NCBI GenBank assembly: GCA_902784055.1
Contig: CACZTP010000006.1
Location: forward strand, 1-37,282
Origin: an uncultured Pseudomonadota bacterium
GTDB taxonomy: Bacteria > Pseudomonadota > Alphaproteobacteria > RUG11792
Direction of reading: 5' to 3'
Length of the DNA: 37,282 bases
In this document: piece after piece, positions 8,078 through 32,295 of the stretch
Layout of the letters: every line of letters starts with the position of its first letter
How positions within the stretch are numbered: the first letter of the stretch is position 1
The notes under the pieces: model-generated
The model's input: the letters and a program-made list of their open reading frames with translations, nothing else
What the model was told of the DNA's origin: nothing
The model's database searches: none
Program-made: the position numbers and the translations under genes

Positions 8078-11000
8078 TTAATTTATCCAGCTATTAACAT
8101 CAAATTTATTTGTGTTTGGAACATTTGGATTAATTCCCAACTCAGGAATAACGGATGAATTAAGGCTCTCAACAATACCTCCTATGGCGTACATTGTCCA
8201 ATATGCTTTTTGAGTATCAATATCGCCATCTAACGCCTGATCGTTGTAGTTATTTATCGACATATTTTTTTCTTTCAATTTGTTGTTACACGCCAAGTAT
8301 TTTACACTCAAGTGATGATTTAACTCGTCGAAGCTTCCGGAATTCAAACACATTTTTATAAAATCTAGGTCATCTTTTGTATTGAACGTATAACGTCCAT
8401 CATCTTGATTTCCGTTAACAACAAAATGACACCATCGAGTTGTAAGGTCTGCGACCATCTTTTTCCACTCAGGAGCATTACTATTCGAACCGTAATTTTG
8501 CTCAATATTTTGTTTATATGCGCCTATTTCATCATTGTTTGCCAATTCGTTACCATCGTTATTATTTTCGACATTATTAAGTTGCTGTATATCATCTAAT
8601 CCGTCTATTCGCAATGCGTCCATATTTAGCAATGTTTTCAAGTTATCAACAAGTTTTCTGATAGCACGTAATTTAGCATTAAGCGCGTTTTTTAACAGTT
8701 GATCATCCCCGGCCTCGTTTATATTATCGTTAATCGTACTAACAAAATAATTTAAGTAGTTTGTTAATTGCTCCGACTCTGTCTGTTTAGACATGTCGCC
8801 GATTAATGCCTTATCGTCTTCCGAATTTATATCAAAAACATGCTTTTCATTTTCCTCCACTTTAAAAGTCTCATAAAAAGCTTTTTCTATATCTGAAGCG
8901 CCAGCTGGAGGAGCAAGTTCTGCCCACTTCGCATCATCAGGATTTACTGGCGGTAATTTCAAAGTTTGAAGAGCTAATTCCTTTAACAAAGAAATGAAAT
9001 TATGTATTCCATTAGCTTTTTGCATTACTTTTTCCAAATCGGTTTCATTACATTGAATTCTTTTTTGTATTACTAAGTTGTTTAAGTTTGTAAGTTCCAT
9101 ATTAATCTTGTTATTTAACCAAATTAGATTATTTTTGCCCATATTTGGTATATTGGTTGGGATATTATAATCCATACAAAATTTATCTAAAGCCTGATTA
9201 TAACAATTGTTGTTTGTATTAATCTGTATCTTGATTTGGGCAATTTGATCTCTAAGGTTGAACCATAAGTTGTAATTCGCATTATAGCTCCGCATCATAT
9301 TTAAAATTTGATTTTTAATCATCGGCTGATAAAAGTTTTGATTAATTATGCTTTGTACCGTATCTATCCACTTACGCTCGCTTTGACTATACAAATTTGG
9401 AAGAGAATAAATTGTATTGTACAAATATAGTGGCATACTGAAACCCGAGTTTTGTTGAATAAGCCTGTTTATCTGAGTAGCAAAATTTTTATTACTCATT
9501 AATAATAAATTTTGTTGATACATAGAATTATATAGCTGCCCCTGAAGAGATGACGCAATATTTAAGCAATTTTGAATATTAACAACATTTTTCAACGATT
9601 GTTCATAGGATAATAATTGTTGTTTATTGATTCTAATATTTTTAATAAAGGTTTCTGCTTGCTTAATCTCGCTACTTAGGTCTTGTTCGTATCTATGGAT
9701 TTTATTTAGTAGCTCATCCCATTCAACATTTTTAAATTTATCAATGATTTTTGCTCGTTCATTTTCTGTACTGCACATTTGTCCAATTTTTTCTTTTGGC
9801 AAGTTAACCAAAGTTTTAAGATTTCGTTCCCAATATGTTCTGCGACTTGTAAAATGAATGTTTTTGTTTTTATTGTTTGGCATATTTTCACTAATAATGT
9901 CAAATAATTTTTTATTTTCATTCCCTATTTTACTGAATTGTTCCTGAATGTCTGTTAATTTTTTATTAGTTTCTTCAATCTCTAATTCCTTATAGATATC
10001 TAAATCCTTTAAAATTAGTTCTCCATTATTCGCATTAATATCAAATGATGTTCCTATGCAATAATTGGAAAACTTTTTTTCGTTTTTTAAATTATCTGCA
10101 TTATTTATTTTTTCATTTTTAATAAATGCTTGAATACTTTTCGCTTTTTGAAAACTATTAAATATTCCATTTTTATAGAAATCATACTTTTTATACTTTT
10201 CGTATGCATTACTTATTTCTATTGAAGCATTATATTTCTTATATAGACAACTTCTATATTTTAAATAAGAAAAGACACTTGTTTGGAACAAAGGATCTGT
10301 AACTAAACTGTCTTTATAATGTTTCCTAAACCAATTTTCTGCAGCTGTATCTCCCCAAAACATTGTTTTATTTATTATTTGACCATGAGGTGTCTCGCCG
10401 TACATAAACGCTTTACCGACAAATGTATCTAAACCATCATTTATTGCGTTATCTGCGTCAACACTTGCTTTGCCAAAAAATGATCCAATAATCGGTCCCC
10501 AGAAATCAGCTATAAAACTCCAAGCCTTATTTAATAATGTATTTGCAATCTTAGATTGTTTAAATTTATTGAGGTTGTTTTTCAATGATAAGTATTTTTC
10601 AACCATTATAACTGTCGGCGTTTGTTCTCTCATATTTTTTATATCTGAAGTATAGCTGCCATTCTCATAATTTATTAATCCATCCCAAAACCATTCTTCT
10701 TTCCATTTTCCTTGGCTAATACAATTATTTCGCACCTCTTTAAATTGGTTAAAGATGTTTTCAGTTATATCAAAGCCATTTTTATATATTCCTGTTCTAA
10801 ATTCATAACTTAATAAATAATATGAAAGCGTTTCATTGACATAATTTAATTCTTCAGGTCTACCTCGTAAATATTTAGCTACTCTTTCCTTAGGATCTCC
10901 AATATCGCGACTTATTTTTTCTGATAAAGCACAAGCCTCCCTATCATAGCTACTTTTAGGTTGTACATTTTCTACATTTCCACACTTTTCAAGAAGCGCC

Positions 11001-14000
11001 ATTTTTGTTAGGTCGTAAATTCCTTTAATGGATCGTTGATCTGTATTTTTTATTAAGTCGAATGCTTTTTTTAATAAGTTCTTTCTTTTTTGATTTTCTG
11101 GATAATTTTGTAAAAGATTGTCAGGAATTTGTAGTTTATTAATCAATATGTCATTAACTTCATCGTCGGTTAAATTGTTGTCGATATTAAAAAATGCTGG
11201 TAATTCTTTACAATCGCTTAACACTGTATTCAAATCTTTGTTGCATTTGTTTTTTAAATATTCAATCAAACGATACTTTATAGAGTCTATAAATTGATTT
11301 TCTTTTGGTCGCTCCAAATCTTGGTCAAGGTCATAAACTATTTTGATTTCTTCCACTGATTTATCTTTTAGTTTTTTGACTGTAGTCAAAATTATTGATC
11401 GTAGTTCAGATAGTTCAAGATCGTTGGTGTAACTAATGTTATCATCAAATGCGCTTCTAACTTCTGATTCGCTAAGATTACACTTATTGTTGCTTATTTT
11501 TAGTTTTAAGTTTTTAGATAACTCATCTAAAGTCATTTCAGATATTCGTTCTGCGGTAAATCCCTGTTTTTTCAATTCAGTAATCCATCTAAAGTTTAAG
11601 AAGGTCACACATTCCGCTTTCTGATCTTGTAACTGATTTTTCCACGCAAGATCTAGTTCTTCCTTTGAAAGATTGAACTGAAATTTGTCACTGTATTTAA
11701 CAACCGAGAATGGAGCAATTACTTTTGACTCGAATGATGACGATTCTTGTATCATAAGCCAACTCATTGCTAAATTCATCATAGTCTGAGACTTATCAAG
11801 AATTTTTAATATACACTCCAGATCATTTTTTCCTAAATCTGAGTTCAAGTAATTCATTAAGTCGTCAAAATGTTCGCTAACAGCCGTTTCTCCAAATGGT
11901 TTTTGACCCGTTACAGCACAAAGAATACGGAACACTCGTGCTACACACATTGTGTATTCGTTTTTATTACTAAACAAATCCGTCAGATATTTTAAATAGA
12001 CTTCCATATTTTTTCTGTTACTACTATCTTTCCAATCTCTTGTTTTATACAGATCGTCAATTGTTTGTAGGTTAGAGCAACAGTTGTTAAATTGGGGACA
12101 ATCCAAAAATTCTTGCAACGAACCGCTAATTTCAAATTCCAAAAGATCGAGCGCTTGCTGTGCATTGGATATTTCCATATACCGAGAATCATCAATACTT
12201 ATCTCCGCTGGCAACCTTCTACCCGTCGGTATCTCCTCAATAACAGAGCCTTGTTTTAGTATGTTGCTTTCAATTGGTAATTCTTCCTTTTTACTATCGT
12301 CTTCGTTTTCTATAGGATGGCTGTTGTAGTACAACTCAAGCTCGTTTGCAAGGCGGGTCAAAGCTTGAAATTTCCAAATTTTATCAGAATCGGAACCCTG
12401 CACTATTTGTCGTCCTTTGTTCGTTATTGTTGAGCGAGCTTTGTCTCTTGGAAGTTTTAAAAAATCGTCAAACATTTGTTTGTCATTATCGCTAAAAAGC
12501 CTCGTCCCTCGTTCCTTTAAATTTATTTCGGTTTCGCCATTTACGTGATATGCATTACGATACTTCGTAAACAATGCTCTGTATTCTTCTGAAATGTCGA
12601 CATCGTTACTATTTAGATTCTTGAAACATTCTTTAACTAAACCTTTTAACTTACACAATTCAGACCATTGGGCTGTTTTCAACGCGCCAGAGCTTTTTAG
12701 ATTCCAACCAGCTTCACTTATAGCCTCGAGTAGATGTTCTTTGTCTAACTTTATCCAGGTATTTTTTTTACTTCGGAATGTTTCATCGAAAATTGGCTTT
12801 GCTACGCCAGAATTATCGTAAGTATACTTACACTGTTCAAACCATTCATCAAACTTTTTAGAAAGACTGTCAATTTTTTGCTTTTCAATTTCCTTTTTTT
12901 TACGATTTGCTTCTAATTCTTTTTGTTTTTTATCTGCCAACTCCTTTTCTTTTGCTAATATTTCTGCCTTTTTTTTAGTTAATGCTTTCTTTTTTTCAAC
13001 TGCTTTTTTAACTTTAAGTTCATCGGCTTTTTTCTTTTCTTCAAGTTCAATTTTCCTCAAACGTTCTTTTTCTTTCTGCTCTTTTTCTATTCTTTCTTTT
13101 TCTTGTTGTTCCGCTAACTGTTTTGCTTTAAGTTCATTGGCTTTTTTATTCCTTTCAGGTTCAATTTTCCTCAAACGTTCTTTTTCTTTCTGCTCTTTTT
13201 CTATTCTTTCTTTTTCTTGTTGTTCCGCTAACTGTTTTGCTTTAAGTTCATCAGCTTTTTTCTTCCTTTCAAGTTCAATTTTCCTCAAATGTTCTTTTTC
13301 TTTCTGCTCTTTTTCTATTCTTTCTTTTTCTTGTTGTTCCGCTAACTGCTTCTGTCGTTCAGTTAGTATCCGTTGTTCGGCTAACATCTTTTGTTCATTT
13401 TGTTCTTTTGCCAACCTTTGTTGTTCAGCTAATATTCGTCGCTGTTCTTCCTCAGATTTCTTTCTCGCCTTTTCTTCTTCTACTCTAAGTTGTTCTTTTT
13501 GTCGTTCTTCTATAATTTTTTTCCTCGTCTGAATATCTCTTATAACTTTTTGTTTCTGTATATTTACAACTTTATTAAAGTCATTAAAAATTTTATTCAA
13601 CTCAAGCAATTCCTTTTCATAATTTTCTTTACTAGACCCCGACGGGACATTTTCAATCTTTGTAAGTTGTTCTTTAATCCTCTTTATATTTGCTTCCCAA
13701 GGATTTGTACTATCAAGTTTGTTTACTTCTTCATTAACTTTTGTAAGACCTGCTTTTATTGCAGATAATATACTATCTCTATCATTCTTGTTCTTTGCTT
13801 CTGTTGGTGGTAATTTTTTTAATTCGGCAAAAAACTCACCAATTTTTTTATCAATTGGTTCTACTTTATTTACGATATAGTTCTGTAATTTTTCCTCATT
13901 AGTGAAAAAATGGTTTTTATCATCATTAATTGCCATGTTGTATATTGCATCTTTATCAAGTTTATTATTAATAGGATTTTTAACGTTATTTTTGAGACGT

Positions 14001-14224
14001 TCATTAAAATTATTATCAACAGAAGAAGAATTTTTTAATGGGGATGAAGACGGAGCGACATAACTGGAGCTGGTTTTAGGTGAACTACCACCCCCACTAC
14101 TTCCGCTATCACTCATTGTTGCTAGTGGCACTGTTATAAGAGTTAGACCTAACAATACAGCTATTGCTACCATTTTATTTTTCCACGATGTACTTCTTAT
14201 TAGATTGTAACATTTTTCTTTCAT
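8078..14224 (-). CDS. Giant membrane-anchored coiled-coil protein, 2048 residues
   Basis: No family recognised. The N terminus has a basic cytoplasmic-type stretch followed by one hydrophobic segment (about residues 18-37), consistent with an uncleaved signal anchor or long signal peptide, then a Ser/Gly-rich low-complexity linker (about 38-70). A highly charged Lys/Glu/Gln coiled coil spans about 215-440 and contains three nearly identical 38-residue tandem repeats (292-405). The remaining 1600 residues look mostly helical, with a Gln/Asn/Tyr-rich part near 1535-1680. There is no C-terminal barrel, LPxTG-like signal, RTX repeat or enzyme motif. One uninterrupted frame of 6.1 kb under obvious selection suggests a functional surface, secreted or structural protein. 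It is transcribed alone, divergently from rpoZ, and ends at a good terminator. Confidence 0.85.
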   Translation of the reverse strand: MKEKCYNLIRSTSWKNKMVAIAVLLGLTLITVPLATMSDSGSSGGGSSPKTSSSYVAPSSSPLKNSSSVDNNFNERLKNNVKNPINNKLDKDAIYNMAINDDKNHFFTNEEKLQNYIVNKVEPIDKKIGEFFAELKKLPPTEAKNKNDRDSILSAIKAGLTKVNEEVNKLDSTNPWEANIKRIKEQLTKIENVPSGSSKENYEKELLELNKIFNDFNKVVNIQKQKVIRDIQTRKKIIEERQKEQLRVEEEKARKKSEEEQRRILAEQQRLAKEQNEQKMLAEQRILTERQKQLAEQQEKERIEKEQKEKEHLRKIELERKKKADELKAKQLAEQQEKERIEKEQKEKERLRKIEPERNKKANELKAKQLAEQQEKERIEKEQKEKERLRKIELEEKKKADELKVKKAVEKKKALTKKKAEILAKEKELADKKQKELEANRKKKEIEKQKIDSLSKKFDEWFEQCKYTYDNSGVAKPIFDETFRSKKNTWIKLDKEHLLEAISEAGWNLKSSGALKTAQWSELCKLKGLVKECFKNLNSNDVDISEEYRALFTKYRNAYHVNGETEINLKERGTRLFSDNDKQMFDDFLKLPRDKARSTITNKGRQIVQGSDSDKIWKFQALTRLANELELYYNSHPIENEDDSKKEELPIESNILKQGSVIEEIPTGRRLPAEISIDDSRYMEISNAQQALDLLEFEISGSLQEFLDCPQFNNCCSNLQTIDDLYKTRDWKDSSNRKNMEVYLKYLTDLFSNKNEYTMCVARVFRILCAVTGQKPFGETAVSEHFDDLMNYLNSDLGKNDLECILKILDKSQTMMNLAMSWLMIQESSSFESKVIAPFSVVKYSDKFQFNLSKEELDLAWKNQLQDQKAECVTFLNFRWITELKKQGFTAERISEMTLDELSKNLKLKISNNKCNLSESEVRSAFDDNISYTNDLELSELRSIILTTVKKLKDKSVEEIKIVYDLDQDLERPKENQFIDSIKYRLIEYLKNKCNKDLNTVLSDCKELPAFFNIDNNLTDDEVNDILINKLQIPDNLLQNYPENQKRKNLLKKAFDLIKNTDQRSIKGIYDLTKMALLEKCGNVENVQPKSSYDREACALSEKISRDIGDPKERVAKYLRGRPEELNYVNETLSYYLLSYEFRTGIYKNGFDITENIFNQFKEVRNNCISQGKWKEEWFWDGLINYENGSYTSDIKNMREQTPTVIMVEKYLSLKNNLNKFKQSKIANTLLNKAWSFIADFWGPIIGSFFGKASVDADNAINDGLDTFVGKAFMYGETPHGQIINKTMFWGDTAAENWFRKHYKDSLVTDPLFQTSVFSYLKYRSCLYKKYNASIEISNAYEKYKKYDFYKNGIFNSFQKAKSIQAFIKNEKINNADNLKNEKKFSNYCIGTSFDINANNGELILKDLDIYKELEIEETNKKLTDIQEQFSKIGNENKKLFDIISENMPNNKNKNIHFTSRRTYWERNLKTLVNLPKEKIGQMCSTENERAKIIDKFKNVEWDELLNKIHRYEQDLSSEIKQAETFIKNIRINKQQLLSYEQSLKNVVNIQNCLNIASSLQGQLYNSMYQQNLLLMSNKNFATQINRLIQQNSGFSMPLYLYNTIYSLPNLYSQSERKWIDTVQSIINQNFYQPMIKNQILNMMRSYNANYNLWFNLRDQIAQIKIQINTNNNCYNQALDKFCMDYNIPTNIPNMGKNNLIWLNNKINMELTNLNNLVIQKRIQCNETDLEKVMQKANGIHNFISLLKELALQTLKLPPVNPDDAKWAELAPPAGASDIEKAFYETFKVEENEKHVFDINSEDDKALIGDMSKQTESEQLTNYLNYFVSTINDNINEAGDDQLLKNALNAKLRAIRKLVDNLKTLLNMDALRIDGLDDIQQLNNVENNNDGNELANNDEIGAYKQNIEQNYGSNSNAPEWKKMVADLTTRWCHFVVNGNQDDGRYTFNTKDDLDFIKMCLNSGSFDELNHHLSVKYLACNNKLKEKNMSINNYNDQALDGDIDTQKAYWTMYAIGGIVESLNSSVIPELGINPNVPNTNKFDVNSWIN
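13010..13351 (-). repeat. Three tandem 114-base repeats in the giant gene
   Basis: Three adjacent in-frame 114-base units (13238-13351, 13124-13237, 13010-13123) encode 38 residues each, starting KQLAEQQEKERIEKEQKEKE. Copies differ at only a few residues (for example H/R, L/P, R/E, D/N) and the DNA is nearly identical, so the expansion looks recent or is maintained by recombination. Degenerate AEQQ/AEQR units lie on the N-terminal side. Confidence 0.92.
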
Positions 14225-28523: not shown

Positions 28524-29180
28524 TTAGGTTCCCACCTTGTTTTGTCCTATGTTCCCAGAAAAATCGAATTGGTATGAAAATTGACCATCAGCCGCGTGGG
28601 CTTTATCCCCTGATGGTTGTTCCATTGATTTTATAGTTACACCATATGATAGGTATGAAAATTCAAATATTGTCATGTACTCATACGTAACCATATCTGC
28701 CATTGTAATAAAACAATTTTCAAATTTTTGAACTGATGTCACTACGGCTTTGTTTACATCTCCTCGTTTCTGTGTAAAAGCTAATTGTATTACTAATATT
28801 TCAGAAAGAGCACCGCACATCACCTGATGCATAAGCTGGGGAGATATAGGCCCCGTCGGAATTGCACCTTGAAATGATGAAGCGTAAGCAGCTCCAGACC
28901 TATTAAGATTTGTATTTTTTATAGGAAATAGCTTTGATTCAATAAAAGTAGTTCCGCATATTAGCGATGTAACTTGTTTTGCGTCATTTTCAATGAGATT
29001 TATACTTGATTCGCATTGTATTGAATTTTCAGTAGCTAGAAGATCAAGTCCAACTTTCCCAAATCTTATTAAACGAGATGTGCTTGCGGAATTGTTAACG
29101 TATTCTGTCCACTCTTGTTTGTAGTTAAACTCCTCATGCCTTCTTATCGCACAACTATTTGCTCCTTGCGGTATAAACAT
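28524..29180 (-). CDS. Unknown protein, 218 residues
   Basis: Family not recognised. No signal peptide, membrane segment or catalytic motif. The C-terminal half contains a strand-rich stretch, VTYEYMTIFEFSYLSYGVTI, followed by a polar loop and QFSYQFDFSGN. This faintly recalls the last beta-hairpin of Hcp-type tube proteins, but the resemblance is by eye and weak, and no secretion-system genes accompany it. The first Met after an upstream TAA is at 29180, with GGA eight bases before it. It stands alone between murA and the divergent kinase-like gene. Confidence 0.55.
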   Translation of the reverse strand: MFIPQGANSCAIRRHEEFNYKQEWTEYVNNSASTSRLIRFGKVGLDLLATENSIQCESSINLIENDAKQVTSLICGTTFIESKLFPIKNTNLNRSGAAYASSFQGAIPTGPISPQLMHQVMCGALSEILVIQLAFTQKRGDVNKAVVTSVQKFENCFITMADMVTYEYMTIFEFSYLSYGVTIKSMEQPSGDKAHAADGQFSYQFDFSGNIGQNKVGT

Positions 29181-29521
29181 TAAAAAAATTCCACAACAGT
29201 GCTTTTGTCTGTATGCTATTGAAACGTTATTAATTTATAGTTAATTTCCTTGAATAATTGTTACATTGAGTGTCGAAAAAGATTTGTCCCTTTGCGTAGG
29301 AATATTGCTGTACAACGCATTTTTTAGAAAATATTTTTATAATTTTGCTTTAATATTTTTAAATAAAATAAACAACTTGCATAAAATCTAATTATGATGT
29401 AAATTGTCTTTACAACTTATTTAAACTTCAACTAAAAATTGATATACAAGAAAAAATTCAATTATTTGAAGAAACACAAACAGCCTAGAATGCTAAGCAC
29501 TACATATCTACGGATGGTGTT
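29181..29521. promoter_or_regulatory. 341-base divergent intergenic region before the kinase-like gene
   Basis: Very AT-rich, without an open frame or RNA-like structure. It should hold promoters for the unknown gene (-) and the kinase/regulator pair (+). Best plus-strand candidates are TTGCAT (29378-29383) with TAAATT (29400-29405) at 16-base spacing, and an isolated TATAAT at 29338-29343 lacking a -35. GGATGG just before 29522 is a fair ribosome binding site for the downstream gene. Confidence 0.35.
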
Positions 29522-30370
29522 ATGAGTAGAAAAGTGACTGTTAGAAGGGATGATATGTCGTCAGGCATTGATAAGGACAAAGTTATGCAATCACAAGTTA
29601 TGCAAAAGCAAAATGTTGGCGCGAATGTGTTAGATGAGTGGTCGAATTTTTTGCGGAAGTACCAGCATGATCTACAAGGTCCGTTGCGGAACATAGCAAA
29701 CTTTTTGCAGATCTTAAAAGAAGAATTGTCCAAACCAGGGGCTATAGATAAGAGTGCAACATTGAAATGCATCAGTGCAGCTGAACACTGTGTGTACACA
29801 CTTAATAGTATTAATATAAATCAGCTAATTGATAATAATAATGTTATCGAAACTTTTGATTTAGAAGAACTGCTGGCGCCATTGTATTGCTTACTACTAA
29901 GTCAGTTAAATGAGCGAAGATGTCGAATTGATATTGATCCAGACATTCCGCACATTACAGGAAATAAGGATGAGATATTGCGTGTTTTTAAAAATCTGCT
30001 AGAGAATTCATTAAATCACGCAAAAACTAAGCAACCGCTTGTGGTAAAAATATCAAAATTGTGCCAACGTGATAACCGGGTTATGCTTCAGTTTAGCGAT
30101 AACGGGAAGAAGCTTACTGATGGTGATAGAAATAAGATCCGGAATTCTCTTAGTTCTCAAGCTTCTGGAATTTCGATAGCAAATTCATTGCTTAAAAAAA
30201 ATAGTGGGTATTTCCAATTTGTTAAATCCGATATCGGATGTCTTTGGGAACTAGAATTACCAGCTGTTGCGTCACAATCTAATCCGATGGAGAAGAATGC
30301 TGACGGTGAATTATTTTCAAAGGTAGGTTTGGTTCGAAAGAAAAAACAAATTAGCAAGGTATTTGTATAA
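29522..30370 (+). CDS. Short soluble histidine-kinase-like protein with degenerate ATP site
   Basis: A 282-residue cytoplasmic protein without sensor or membrane domain. A dimerisation/phosphoacceptor helix begins at about 37, with His49 in QHDLQGPLRNI, the H-box style of phytochrome-class kinases. A GHKL domain follows: the N-box EILRVFKNLLENSLNHA is intact. The G1 box is DNGKK instead of DxGxG, no F-box is seen, and the glycine-rich G2 is reduced to ASGISIAN. This could make it a weak kinase or a phosphotransfer protein of the ChpT kind. The next gene, 14 bases on, encodes a REC protein, the natural partner. Confidence 0.82.
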   Translation: MSRKVTVRRDDMSSGIDKDKVMQSQVMQKQNVGANVLDEWSNFLRKYQHDLQGPLRNIANFLQILKEELSKPGAIDKSATLKCISAAEHCVYTLNSININQLIDNNNVIETFDLEELLAPLYCLLLSQLNERRCRIDIDPDIPHITGNKDEILRVFKNLLENSLNHAKTKQPLVVKISKLCQRDNRVMLQFSDNGKKLTDGDRNKIRNSLSSQASGISIANSLLKKNSGYFQFVKSDIGCLWELELPAVASQSNPMEKNADGELFSKVGLVRKKKQISKVFV

Positions 30371-30384
30371 GAAGGTTCTTTTAT

Positions 30385-31110
30385 TTGACATGTATGATTA
30401 TGGATTTTGGAAAGTTTAACAGCCATGAGTTCGATAAGTATTTGGGCGAAAGACTTAGAGATTGTCGAAAGCGTCAGAATTCTACATTAGTCGAGGTTGC
30501 AAAGATTATTGGAATTTCTTTTCAGCAATTACAAAAGTATGAAAACGCTGTAAGCCGAATTCCTGTGTCTTTACTATGTAAATTGTCTTTAATGTATTCC
30601 ATTTCTATTGATTCATTATTTGAGCGCTACATTAAAAAGACACTAGGAGCTCGAAAGGTCTCTGTCAGTAATGATAGGCTGGTACGCAATATACTTATTG
30701 TCGAAGATAATCCAGACGATGAAAAAATTACTCAGCGAGCGTTGGATGGAATTCCAAATCTGAATGTTATGTTTGTTCACGATTGTGCTCAAGCTATACG
30801 CATTCTGAAAAGGAGCACAGATTTTGATGAGTTTAAAACGCCGGATTTAATATTTTTAGATTATTACATGCCTAAACGTGATGGACTGTCTATGTTAAGA
30901 GATTTGCGAAGCGATCGTCGTTTCACTTGTGTGCCAATTGTAATGCTTACGAATAATATAAATGCTGAAGCGATGTTTGAATCTTATCGCCTTGGTGCAT
31001 CTGGATATATATGCAAGTCATTCGACTTTGCAAAGTTTAAAGAGAATGTTGTAAGCAGTGTTAATTACTGGACGAAAACGATAGTGCCACCATCCTGTGT
31101 GAATAGATAA
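30385..31110 (+). CDS. Response regulator with N-terminal XRE-type HTH and C-terminal receiver
   Basis: The 241 residues have an unusual order: a helix-turn-helix of the XRE/Cro type at about 16-75 (GERLRDCRKRQNSTLVEVAK, then SFQQLQKYENAVSRIP), then a receiver domain (about 102-230) of the Rcp1-like kind. All receiver residues are present: acidic pair Glu107/Asp108, phosphoacceptor Asp159 in LIFLDYYMP, Thr189 and Lys211. The protein should bind DNA and be controlled by phosphorylation, most likely from the kinase-like gene 14 bases upstream. The TTG at 30385 follows GAAGG by nine bases. ATG codons at 30394 and 30400 are alternative starts but too far from it. Confidence 0.88.
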   Translation: MTCMIMDFGKFNSHEFDKYLGERLRDCRKRQNSTLVEVAKIIGISFQQLQKYENAVSRIPVSLLCKLSLMYSISIDSLFERYIKKTLGARKVSVSNDRLVRNILIVEDNPDDEKITQRALDGIPNLNVMFVHDCAQAIRILKRSTDFDEFKTPDLIFLDYYMPKRDGLSMLRDLRSDRRFTCVPIVMLTNNINAEAMFESYRLGASGYICKSFDFAKFKENVVSSVNYWTKTIVPPSCVNR

Positions 31111-31242
31111 ATAGATTTGTCTCTTGTCGTATGTGTGTATGCCGTGGTCGAGTAGTTTTTTGGAGACATTTCAGTTTAGGAATGAATGCCGTTTATTCGC
31201 AGTTGGGTTTTGTATGTAGCAAAACAAAAGTAACGAATAAGA

Positions 31243-31270
31243 CCGTTCCTTTATTTTAATAAAGGAACGG
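31243..31270. terminator. Strong hairpin between convergent genes
   Basis: CCGTTCCTTTATT (31243-31255) and AATAAAGGAACGG (31258-31270) form a perfect 13-pair inverted repeat. It lies 15 bases past the stop of the minus-strand barrel gene and about 130 past the regulator stop, so it probably ends transcription of the barrel gene and may serve both. T-runs are weak on both sides. Confidence 0.65.
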
Positions 31271-31284
31271 CAAAAGTTTGGTTT

Positions 31285-32295
31285 TTAAAAGGTAAATCCG
31301 ATAGTTAAACTCGAGCCAAACGACTGGAGATTAAAATCAAATGGTTTTATTTTATTTGCTATATTGCGAGGAAACAAGTAAAATGTTCCAAGTTTTGTGA
31401 AGAGCTTATTTTTTATATTAAGTCTAATCCCTAATTCCGCTCCAAACCTATTAACCCAGTTTGACTGTTTCCGATCAGGGAAAATATCTATAATGTCAGG
31501 CACCATCTTGCGGCAAAGATCGAGCATCGGCAATTTATACATTGATGAACAATCATATTCAATCTTTGTTATTTGGTCAAATGCAGATACTTCTATAGAG
31601 AAACGCTTACTACATTGAATACCAATACCAATTTTCGGAGCTATCGCATACTGCATTTTATAACGAGCTGTATCTTCTGAGATTTGTTTGAGGTCTGAAG
31701 TCTGAATCAATTTAAATGCTTTTCCAATTCTTTCAGGTTCATCTTCATCAATTTTAATTTTCCGACCTTTAGAACCTGCTAGATCATAAAAGAAAGAAAT
31801 TCCTCCGATTAAATAGGTATTGCTAGTAACGAAGTAATTGGCAAACACTCCAACTCCAATATCCCAATTTACATAGCTGTTGCCTTTAGATGGTGTGCTA
31901 TCTTCTATGAACGTTGAATTATTAATGTTATTTGTCGCTGTAATGAACTCATCTTTTGTTAAATTGTACTTTATTAATTCTGGTTTTTCTATACACGCTA
32001 GCATAACAGAGAAACTACTTGGTTGACTCATCAATACAGAATCAAACTGTCGTATGTCGATATTTAAAAAATTGCATGCATTAACCATAGATGCTCGAAT
32101 ATTATTCAAATCATTATCTGTCAAGTTATTGTTAATCAATCCACGTGCACAAATAACATCTGCGGAGTAAAGATCTTTTAAAACAATGGCTTTTTGTTCA
32201 TTAGTTAAGTTGTTAATTGTATTTTGCAAATTTGGAAAGTTATTTATAATTGCGGTTATTGCACCCGTTATACCAGTTTGCGTCAAATTAGTCAT
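31285..32295 (-). CDS. Outer-membrane beta-barrel protein, C-terminal part of a frameshifted gene
   Basis: From its first ATG this frame gives 336 residues: a helical 140-residue stretch and then alternating amphipathic strands (YVNWDIGVGVFANYFV, YAIAPKIGIGIQCSKRFSIE, WVNRFGAELGIRLNI), ending in TIGFTF with the terminal Phe typical of barrel proteins assembled by BAM. It lacks a signal peptide and its ATG has no ribosome binding site. The frame stays open upstream (reading KKGFTESVLNFNKSFL before the Met) as far as an A6 run where the preceding signal-peptide frame can join it. It is most likely the body of one split gene covering 31285-32564. Confidence 0.7.
   Translation of the reverse strand: MTNLTQTGITGAITAIINNFPNLQNTINNLTNEQKAIVLKDLYSADVICARGLINNNLTDNDLNNIRASMVNACNFLNIDIRQFDSVLMSQPSSFSVMLACIEKPELIKYNLTKDEFITATNNINNSTFIEDSTPSKGNSYVNWDIGVGVFANYFVTSNTYLIGGISFFYDLAGSKGRKIKIDEDEPERIGKAFKLIQTSDLKQISEDTARYKMQYAIAPKIGIGIQCSKRFSIEVSAFDQITKIEYDCSSMYKLPMLDLCRKMVPDIIDIFPDRKQSNWVNRFGAELGIRLNIKNKLFTKLGTFYLFPRNIANKIKPFDFNLQSFGSSLTIGFTF

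Follow-up and report, generated by a model that had tools for sequence, protein, structure and literature searches.

A slimmed-down histidine kinase encoded beside a response regulator with its HTH domain ahead of the receiver in small-genome Alphaproteobacteria

The window, the whole stretch of 37,282 nucleotides analysed here, belongs to an alphaproteobacterial genome of 0.75 Mb in 28 contigs. Two of its genes, read in tandem on the plus strand with a gap of 23 or 29 bp, encode a histidine kinase and a response regulator that together, judged by their relatives, are an ordinary two-component pair slimmed down, with an XRE-type HTH placed ahead of the receiver, and not a new kind of relay. 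The pair is probably a reduced version of the Cph1/Rcp1 type with its output reversed, in which the kinase, through a putative autokinase activity, feeds the receiver. The domain make-up and order of the two proteins, the conservation of their operon, the invariance of the catalytic residues, purifying selection, the separateness of the kinase from ChpT, the loss of the sensor and the association of kinase loss with receiver decay were established directly. The host genome has only four receiver domains: that of the HTH-REC protein, an NtrX-like one whose gene adjoins that of an NtrY-like kinase, a CtrA-like one and that of a CckA-like hybrid kinase, these NtrX-, NtrY-, CtrA- and CckA-like names having been assigned by reading the sequences. 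The pair is thus one of very few phospho-signalling outputs that have been kept.

The operon, its regulator and its surroundings

The regulator lies in an open reading frame at 30385-31110 that opens with TTG; ATG codons at 30394 or 30400 are more likely starts. The first-pass annotation had read an XRE-type HTH followed by an Rcp1-like receiver with all catalytic residues kept, and the Pfam search confirmed this (HTH_3 and Response_reg; regulator residue numbers count from 30397).

29522..30370, + strand: sensorless histidine kinase, 282 aa (DHp + CA), from the ORF list, Pfam search and structure model
30394..31110, + strand: HTH-REC response regulator (ATG 30394 or 30400; TTG 30385 possible), from the ORF list and Pfam search
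30454..30615, + strand: XRE/Cro-CI type HTH_3 domain, residues 20-73 (E=1e-8)
30691..31047, + strand: Rcp1-type receiver (Response_reg), residues 99-217 (E=1e-18; closest PDB chains)
30859-30861, + strand: receiver phospho-Asp codon, from the receiver catalytic set
31242..31271, no strand assigned: terminator-like hairpin of 13 bp, separating the operon from the gene convergent with it, from a hairpin scan in which its T-run was scored on the minus strand and shuffles yielded 0.9 comparable sites on average

The order of HTH then receiver is the reverse of that in canonical, receiver-first DNA-binding response regulators, and is found again in L055 and L060-L062. The catalytic set of the receiver (E-D, phospho-D, T and K) is complete, with the K followed by Ser and not by the usual Pro, and RcpA, Rcp1 and RcpB are among the solved receivers nearest to it (chains including 1k68 and 1i3c). 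A literature search of limited coverage found no description of N-HTH/C-REC regulators, which is weak evidence of their absence.

No conserved operator was found 5' of the operon, where the upstream regions of three congeners align poorly and have no common palindrome. A palindrome, TGTAAATTGTCTTTACA, is present at window positions 29398-29414, some 110 bp before the start codon of the kinase, and is not conserved in two congeners. The number of sites in a promoter scan was no higher than in shuffles, and a search for RNA families and tRNAs across the window found none. The proteins encoded on either side of the operon, at 28524-29180 (-) and 31285-32295 (-), are both without a Pfam match; the former has a weak OmpV match (E=0.002, far under the cut-off) and the latter a C-terminal Phe-rich strand like those of outer-membrane barrels, and judged by these features the operon may be flanked on both sides by genes for putative outer-membrane proteins. 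Elsewhere in the window, 8078-14224 (-) encodes a 2048-aa protein with a hydrophobic N-terminal segment, a long Glu/Lys/Gln-rich repeat stretch and no NCBIfam match, possibly a secreted or surface protein. The same genome also encodes a single-domain XRE protein of the FQQxQKYE type (G000:C8:22458-22637, L182) that is 32% identical to the regulator HTH and may be related to the source from which this part of the regulator came.

The kinase and its ATP site

The Pfam search of the kinase returned HATPase_c at residues 148-233 (E=1.3e-7, above the gathering cut-off) and no additional domain besides a weak HisKA match at residues 41-84 (E=0.012, under the Pfam cut-off; relatives reach 4.7e-5). 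Structure prediction, which had been proposed as a check, was carried out with AlphaFold, and gave a model of medium confidence (pLDDT 65, pTM 0.59, built from 4 sequences) with two predicted DHp helices (residues 48-69 and 77-102), a CA fold and a disordered stretch at residues 1-42. The Foldseek neighbours of this model are histidine kinases, with DivL at the top and many kinases scoring alike; the closest solved relative is the bacteriophytochrome kinase 8f71. Given the disorder modelled at residues 1-42 and the near-neutral evolution of residues 1-40, the kinase is without a sensor domain, as had been suggested from the first reading.

29642..29851, + strand: DHp helical hairpin, residues 41-110 (H49 and D50 invariant 20/20; HisKA match)
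29666-29671, + strand: phospho-acceptor His49-Asp50 in the motif HDLQGPLR (invariant 20/20)
29852..30265, + strand: CA (Bergerat-fold) ATPase domain, residues 111-248 (HATPase_c; model and Foldseek matches to histidine kinases)
29990..30007, + strand: N box K157-N158-L159-L160-E161-N162 (K157, N158, L159, E161 and N162 invariant 20/20)
30098..30106, + strand: G1 box D193-N194-G195, second Gly of DxGxG missing (invariant 20/20)
30107..30166, + strand: shortened ATP lid without F box (DNG-to-G2 distance 22 aa; 12-28 across the family)
30167..30169, + strand: reduced G2 box, G216 (invariant 20/20)

Invariance was counted in an alignment of 20 kinases from the window's family, in which the consensus of the N box is KNLxEN; the phospho-His segment and N box are indeed kept, as the first-pass annotation had it. 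Its description of the ATP lid as degraded, with no clear G2, was correct in the first part and too strong in the second. The second G1 Gly and the F box are missing, and 22 aa separate DNG from G2, where the canonical L144 and L161 kinases have 31 by an identical count; the family kinases lack the first G2 Gly and retain a single one, the invariant G216. The alignment indicates that the short lid is ancestral to the family and that the ATP-contacting residues have been held since. Judged by its sequence, the kinase is a variant of the HisKA/HATPase_c type and not a canonical member, and its autokinase activity may be weak or absent, given a lid of 12-28 aa and the missing F box and first G2 Gly.

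Within the window's genus, dN is 0.07-0.17 in the DHp and in the CA up to G1, with saturated dS; it rises to about 0.23-0.25 in the lid, and both ends of the kinase (residues 1-40 and 249-282) evolve near-neutrally. Such estimates place the DHp, CA, HTH and receiver under strong purifying selection among three congeners. Chance is excluded because the pair is conserved across the family and a low dN goes with a saturated dS. HisKA phosphatases carry Thr or Asn at position H+4; in the family kinases this residue is Gly or Glu, which favours net phosphate donation.

Distribution of the pair and the fate of the receiver

The architecture and neighbour search that had been suggested was run at several depths. 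Searches of 59 relatives with each protein showed the two genes as neighbours in most of the window's family. A profile search detected the regulator in 28 of the 35 family genomes (0.5-1.1 Mb), and in 20 of these 28 the kinase is adjacent to it. The contig of G004 starts just before the regulator, so that its kinase may be cut off there; in the congeners G026, G029 and G032 the kinase is truly absent. The full HTH-REC protein is present in 22 of 385 alphaproteobacterial genomes, which come from 12 families and are all of at most 2.6 Mb, and in four more matches among the 385 mainly the receiver was covered. In the named-genome collection, the full-length proteins among the matches listed are from metagenome-assembled genomes, several of them rumen by title, and the labels among those listed matches are Holosporales, Rickettsiales, Alphaproteobacteria and proteobacterium, together with Clostridia and Chlorobiaceae, both doubtful. 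Because it is spread through the family and over 22 of 385 genomes of the class, the reversed architecture is, by these searches, conserved in small-genome Alphaproteobacteria and no local accident.

Most kinases of the family (14 of 20) are 311-335 aa long, with an N-terminus of about 110 aa that has no Pfam match. The relatives' whole-kinase model, in which the structural comparison was filled by matches to the kinase part, predicts for this N-terminus, with low to medium confidence, two strands, two helices and three strands, the order of a PAS-like domain. G003 lacks it, as do genus g7 and the window's genus; the MurA tree, which groups these two genera at 94/96, implies two losses or more. 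The G001 kinase has a longer N-terminus without similarity. A distant MAG (L061) encodes a sensorless short-lid kinase of 232 aa, 2.3 kb from its HTH-REC gene. In other alphaproteobacterial families canonical kinases are encoded beside or near the HTH-REC regulator: L144 is PAS_4-HisKA-HATPase_c with full G1, F and G2 boxes, and L161 likewise has canonical boxes, while the HTH-REC neighbour kinases L153 and L154 of family f140 (genomes G185 and G361) have undergone the opposite decay, with the G1 Asp replaced and the F box and G2 intact. These comparisons make it likely that an ordinary PAS-histidine kinase was reduced beside an HTH-REC regulator. The pair had been taken for a reduced or novel phosphorelay output module: reduction is what the loss of the PAS-like domain and the canonical kinases of distant relatives point to, and a novel phosphorelay is not, since no gene for a further relay partner adjoins the pair.

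The catalytic set of the receiver is intact in 19 of the 20 family genomes with an adjacent kinase, and at least one catalytic residue has been lost in 7 of the 8 without it; kinase absence and receiver damage are associated (Fisher 5e-5; by genus, 1 of 12 against 4 of 5 damaged, p=0.01), but behind this link lie only about three independent kinase losses on the MurA tree. An independent-pairs test has 2-3 pairs, too few for significance. The exceptions are G011, where the receiver is undamaged without a kinase, and G017, where one acidic residue is changed in the presence of the kinase; the G003 regulator is cut at a contig end, and its receiver was scored on the residues present. The HTH is retained both with and without the kinase. 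Decay of the receiver where the kinase is gone agrees with a cognate pair whose phosphate would come from the kinase.

In the mechanism that we propose, a cytoplasmic dimer of this HisKA-type kinase would use its intact N box and the G1 Asp to bind Mg-ATP, and would autophosphorylate His49; the phosphate would then be passed to the receiver Asp, and phosphorylation of the receiver would alter the dimerization and DNA binding of the HTH. With no sensor, the output in the window's genus would be set by the levels of kinase and regulator or by some partner. The relatives form a natural series, from the canonical PAS kinase through the short-lid kinase with a PAS-like domain and the sensorless kinase to loss of the kinase with a decaying receiver, which allows one to ask what the minimum sufficient histidine kinase is, and whether an XRE regulator persists once its source of phosphate is gone.

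Other readings and known systems

The first-pass annotation had suggested that the kinase relays phosphate as ChpT does and does not autophosphorylate, that is, that it is a histidine phosphotransferase making no use of ATP and shuttling phosphate to HTH-REC from a different kinase, for example CckA. ChpT is a DHp protein with a degenerate Bergerat-like domain, its lid replaced, that neither binds ATP nor autophosphorylates (PMC3433190); the short lid, the missing F box and sensor and the CckA-like hybrid kinase of the genome would suit such a role. Against it, all 20 kinases retain the N-box Asn and the G1 Asp, canonical kinases adjoin the same regulator in other families, and a profile match between kinase and ChpT has a probability of 5.9%. 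The identification with ChpT was rejected because the same genome has a separate, highly divergent ChpT ortholog (G000:C5:23288-23842, L178) in which the ATP-site residues are lost. Orthologs of the latter were found in 32 of 35 family genomes with a profile built from two family candidates that had weak PF10090 matches and are encoded next to trmB; the family ChpT proteins keep ICH(D/E)L and lack the N-box Asn pair and DNG. PF10090 (HPTransfase) has no match in the window's own genome at E<=10, and so also misses its divergent ChpT, and a search of this genome found no trmB whose synteny could mark ChpT there. On balance a ChpT-like role of the kinase is unlikely.

We consider it improbable that the kinase is a pseudokinase or scaffold like DivL, binding or dephosphorylating the receiver and adding no phosphate. 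The degenerate lid and the first rank of DivL among Foldseek matches, which many kinases nearly share, would agree with this, and DivL is without autokinase activity and binds phospho-DivK (PMC4211667). However, DivL has Tyr in place of the His that is invariant here, which makes DivL-like scaffolding unlikely; moreover, the phosphatase Thr/Asn at H+4 is absent, and receiver decay upon kinase loss suggests that the kinase is a phosphate source. The lost sensor, the shortened lid and the complete disappearance of the kinase from several relatives could also be those of a two-component pair decaying as a remnant under genome reduction, but the purifying selection on all four domains and the reading frames of the congeners, open throughout, leave this reading very improbable. 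We prefer a reduced pair whose kinase feeds the receiver. There is an outside chance that sensorless minimal-lid kinases are constitutive or are fed by, for example, CckA, in which case HTH-receiver proteins would give the cell-cycle phosphorelay of small-genome Alphaproteobacteria a second branch of output.

Among known systems, Cph1/Rcp1-type pairs, made up of a phytochrome-like kinase and a single-domain receiver, are alike in their Rcp1-type receiver (nearest solved structures 1k68 and 1i3c) and in their kinase (8f71 being the nearest), whose HDxxxPLR motif in the DHp resembles that of Cph1; here, by contrast, there is no photosensory or other sensor, the ATP lid is shortened and an XRE HTH is fused before the receiver. 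ChpT of Caulobacter is likewise a small, sensorless DHp and Bergerat-like dimer with a reduced lid, but binds no ATP, whereas the ATP-site residues of the window kinase are invariant and a different gene of the genome encodes the true ChpT. The DivL pseudokinase has the same fold, and differs in its Tyr and its PAS domains. SgmT/DigR of Myxococcus xanthus pairs a kinase with a response regulator that unites receiver and HTH_Xre domains (PMC3509222); in DigR the HTH is C-terminal, in the canonical order, and SgmT carries GAF, receiver and GGDEF domains, whereas the HTH of the window regulator is N-terminal.
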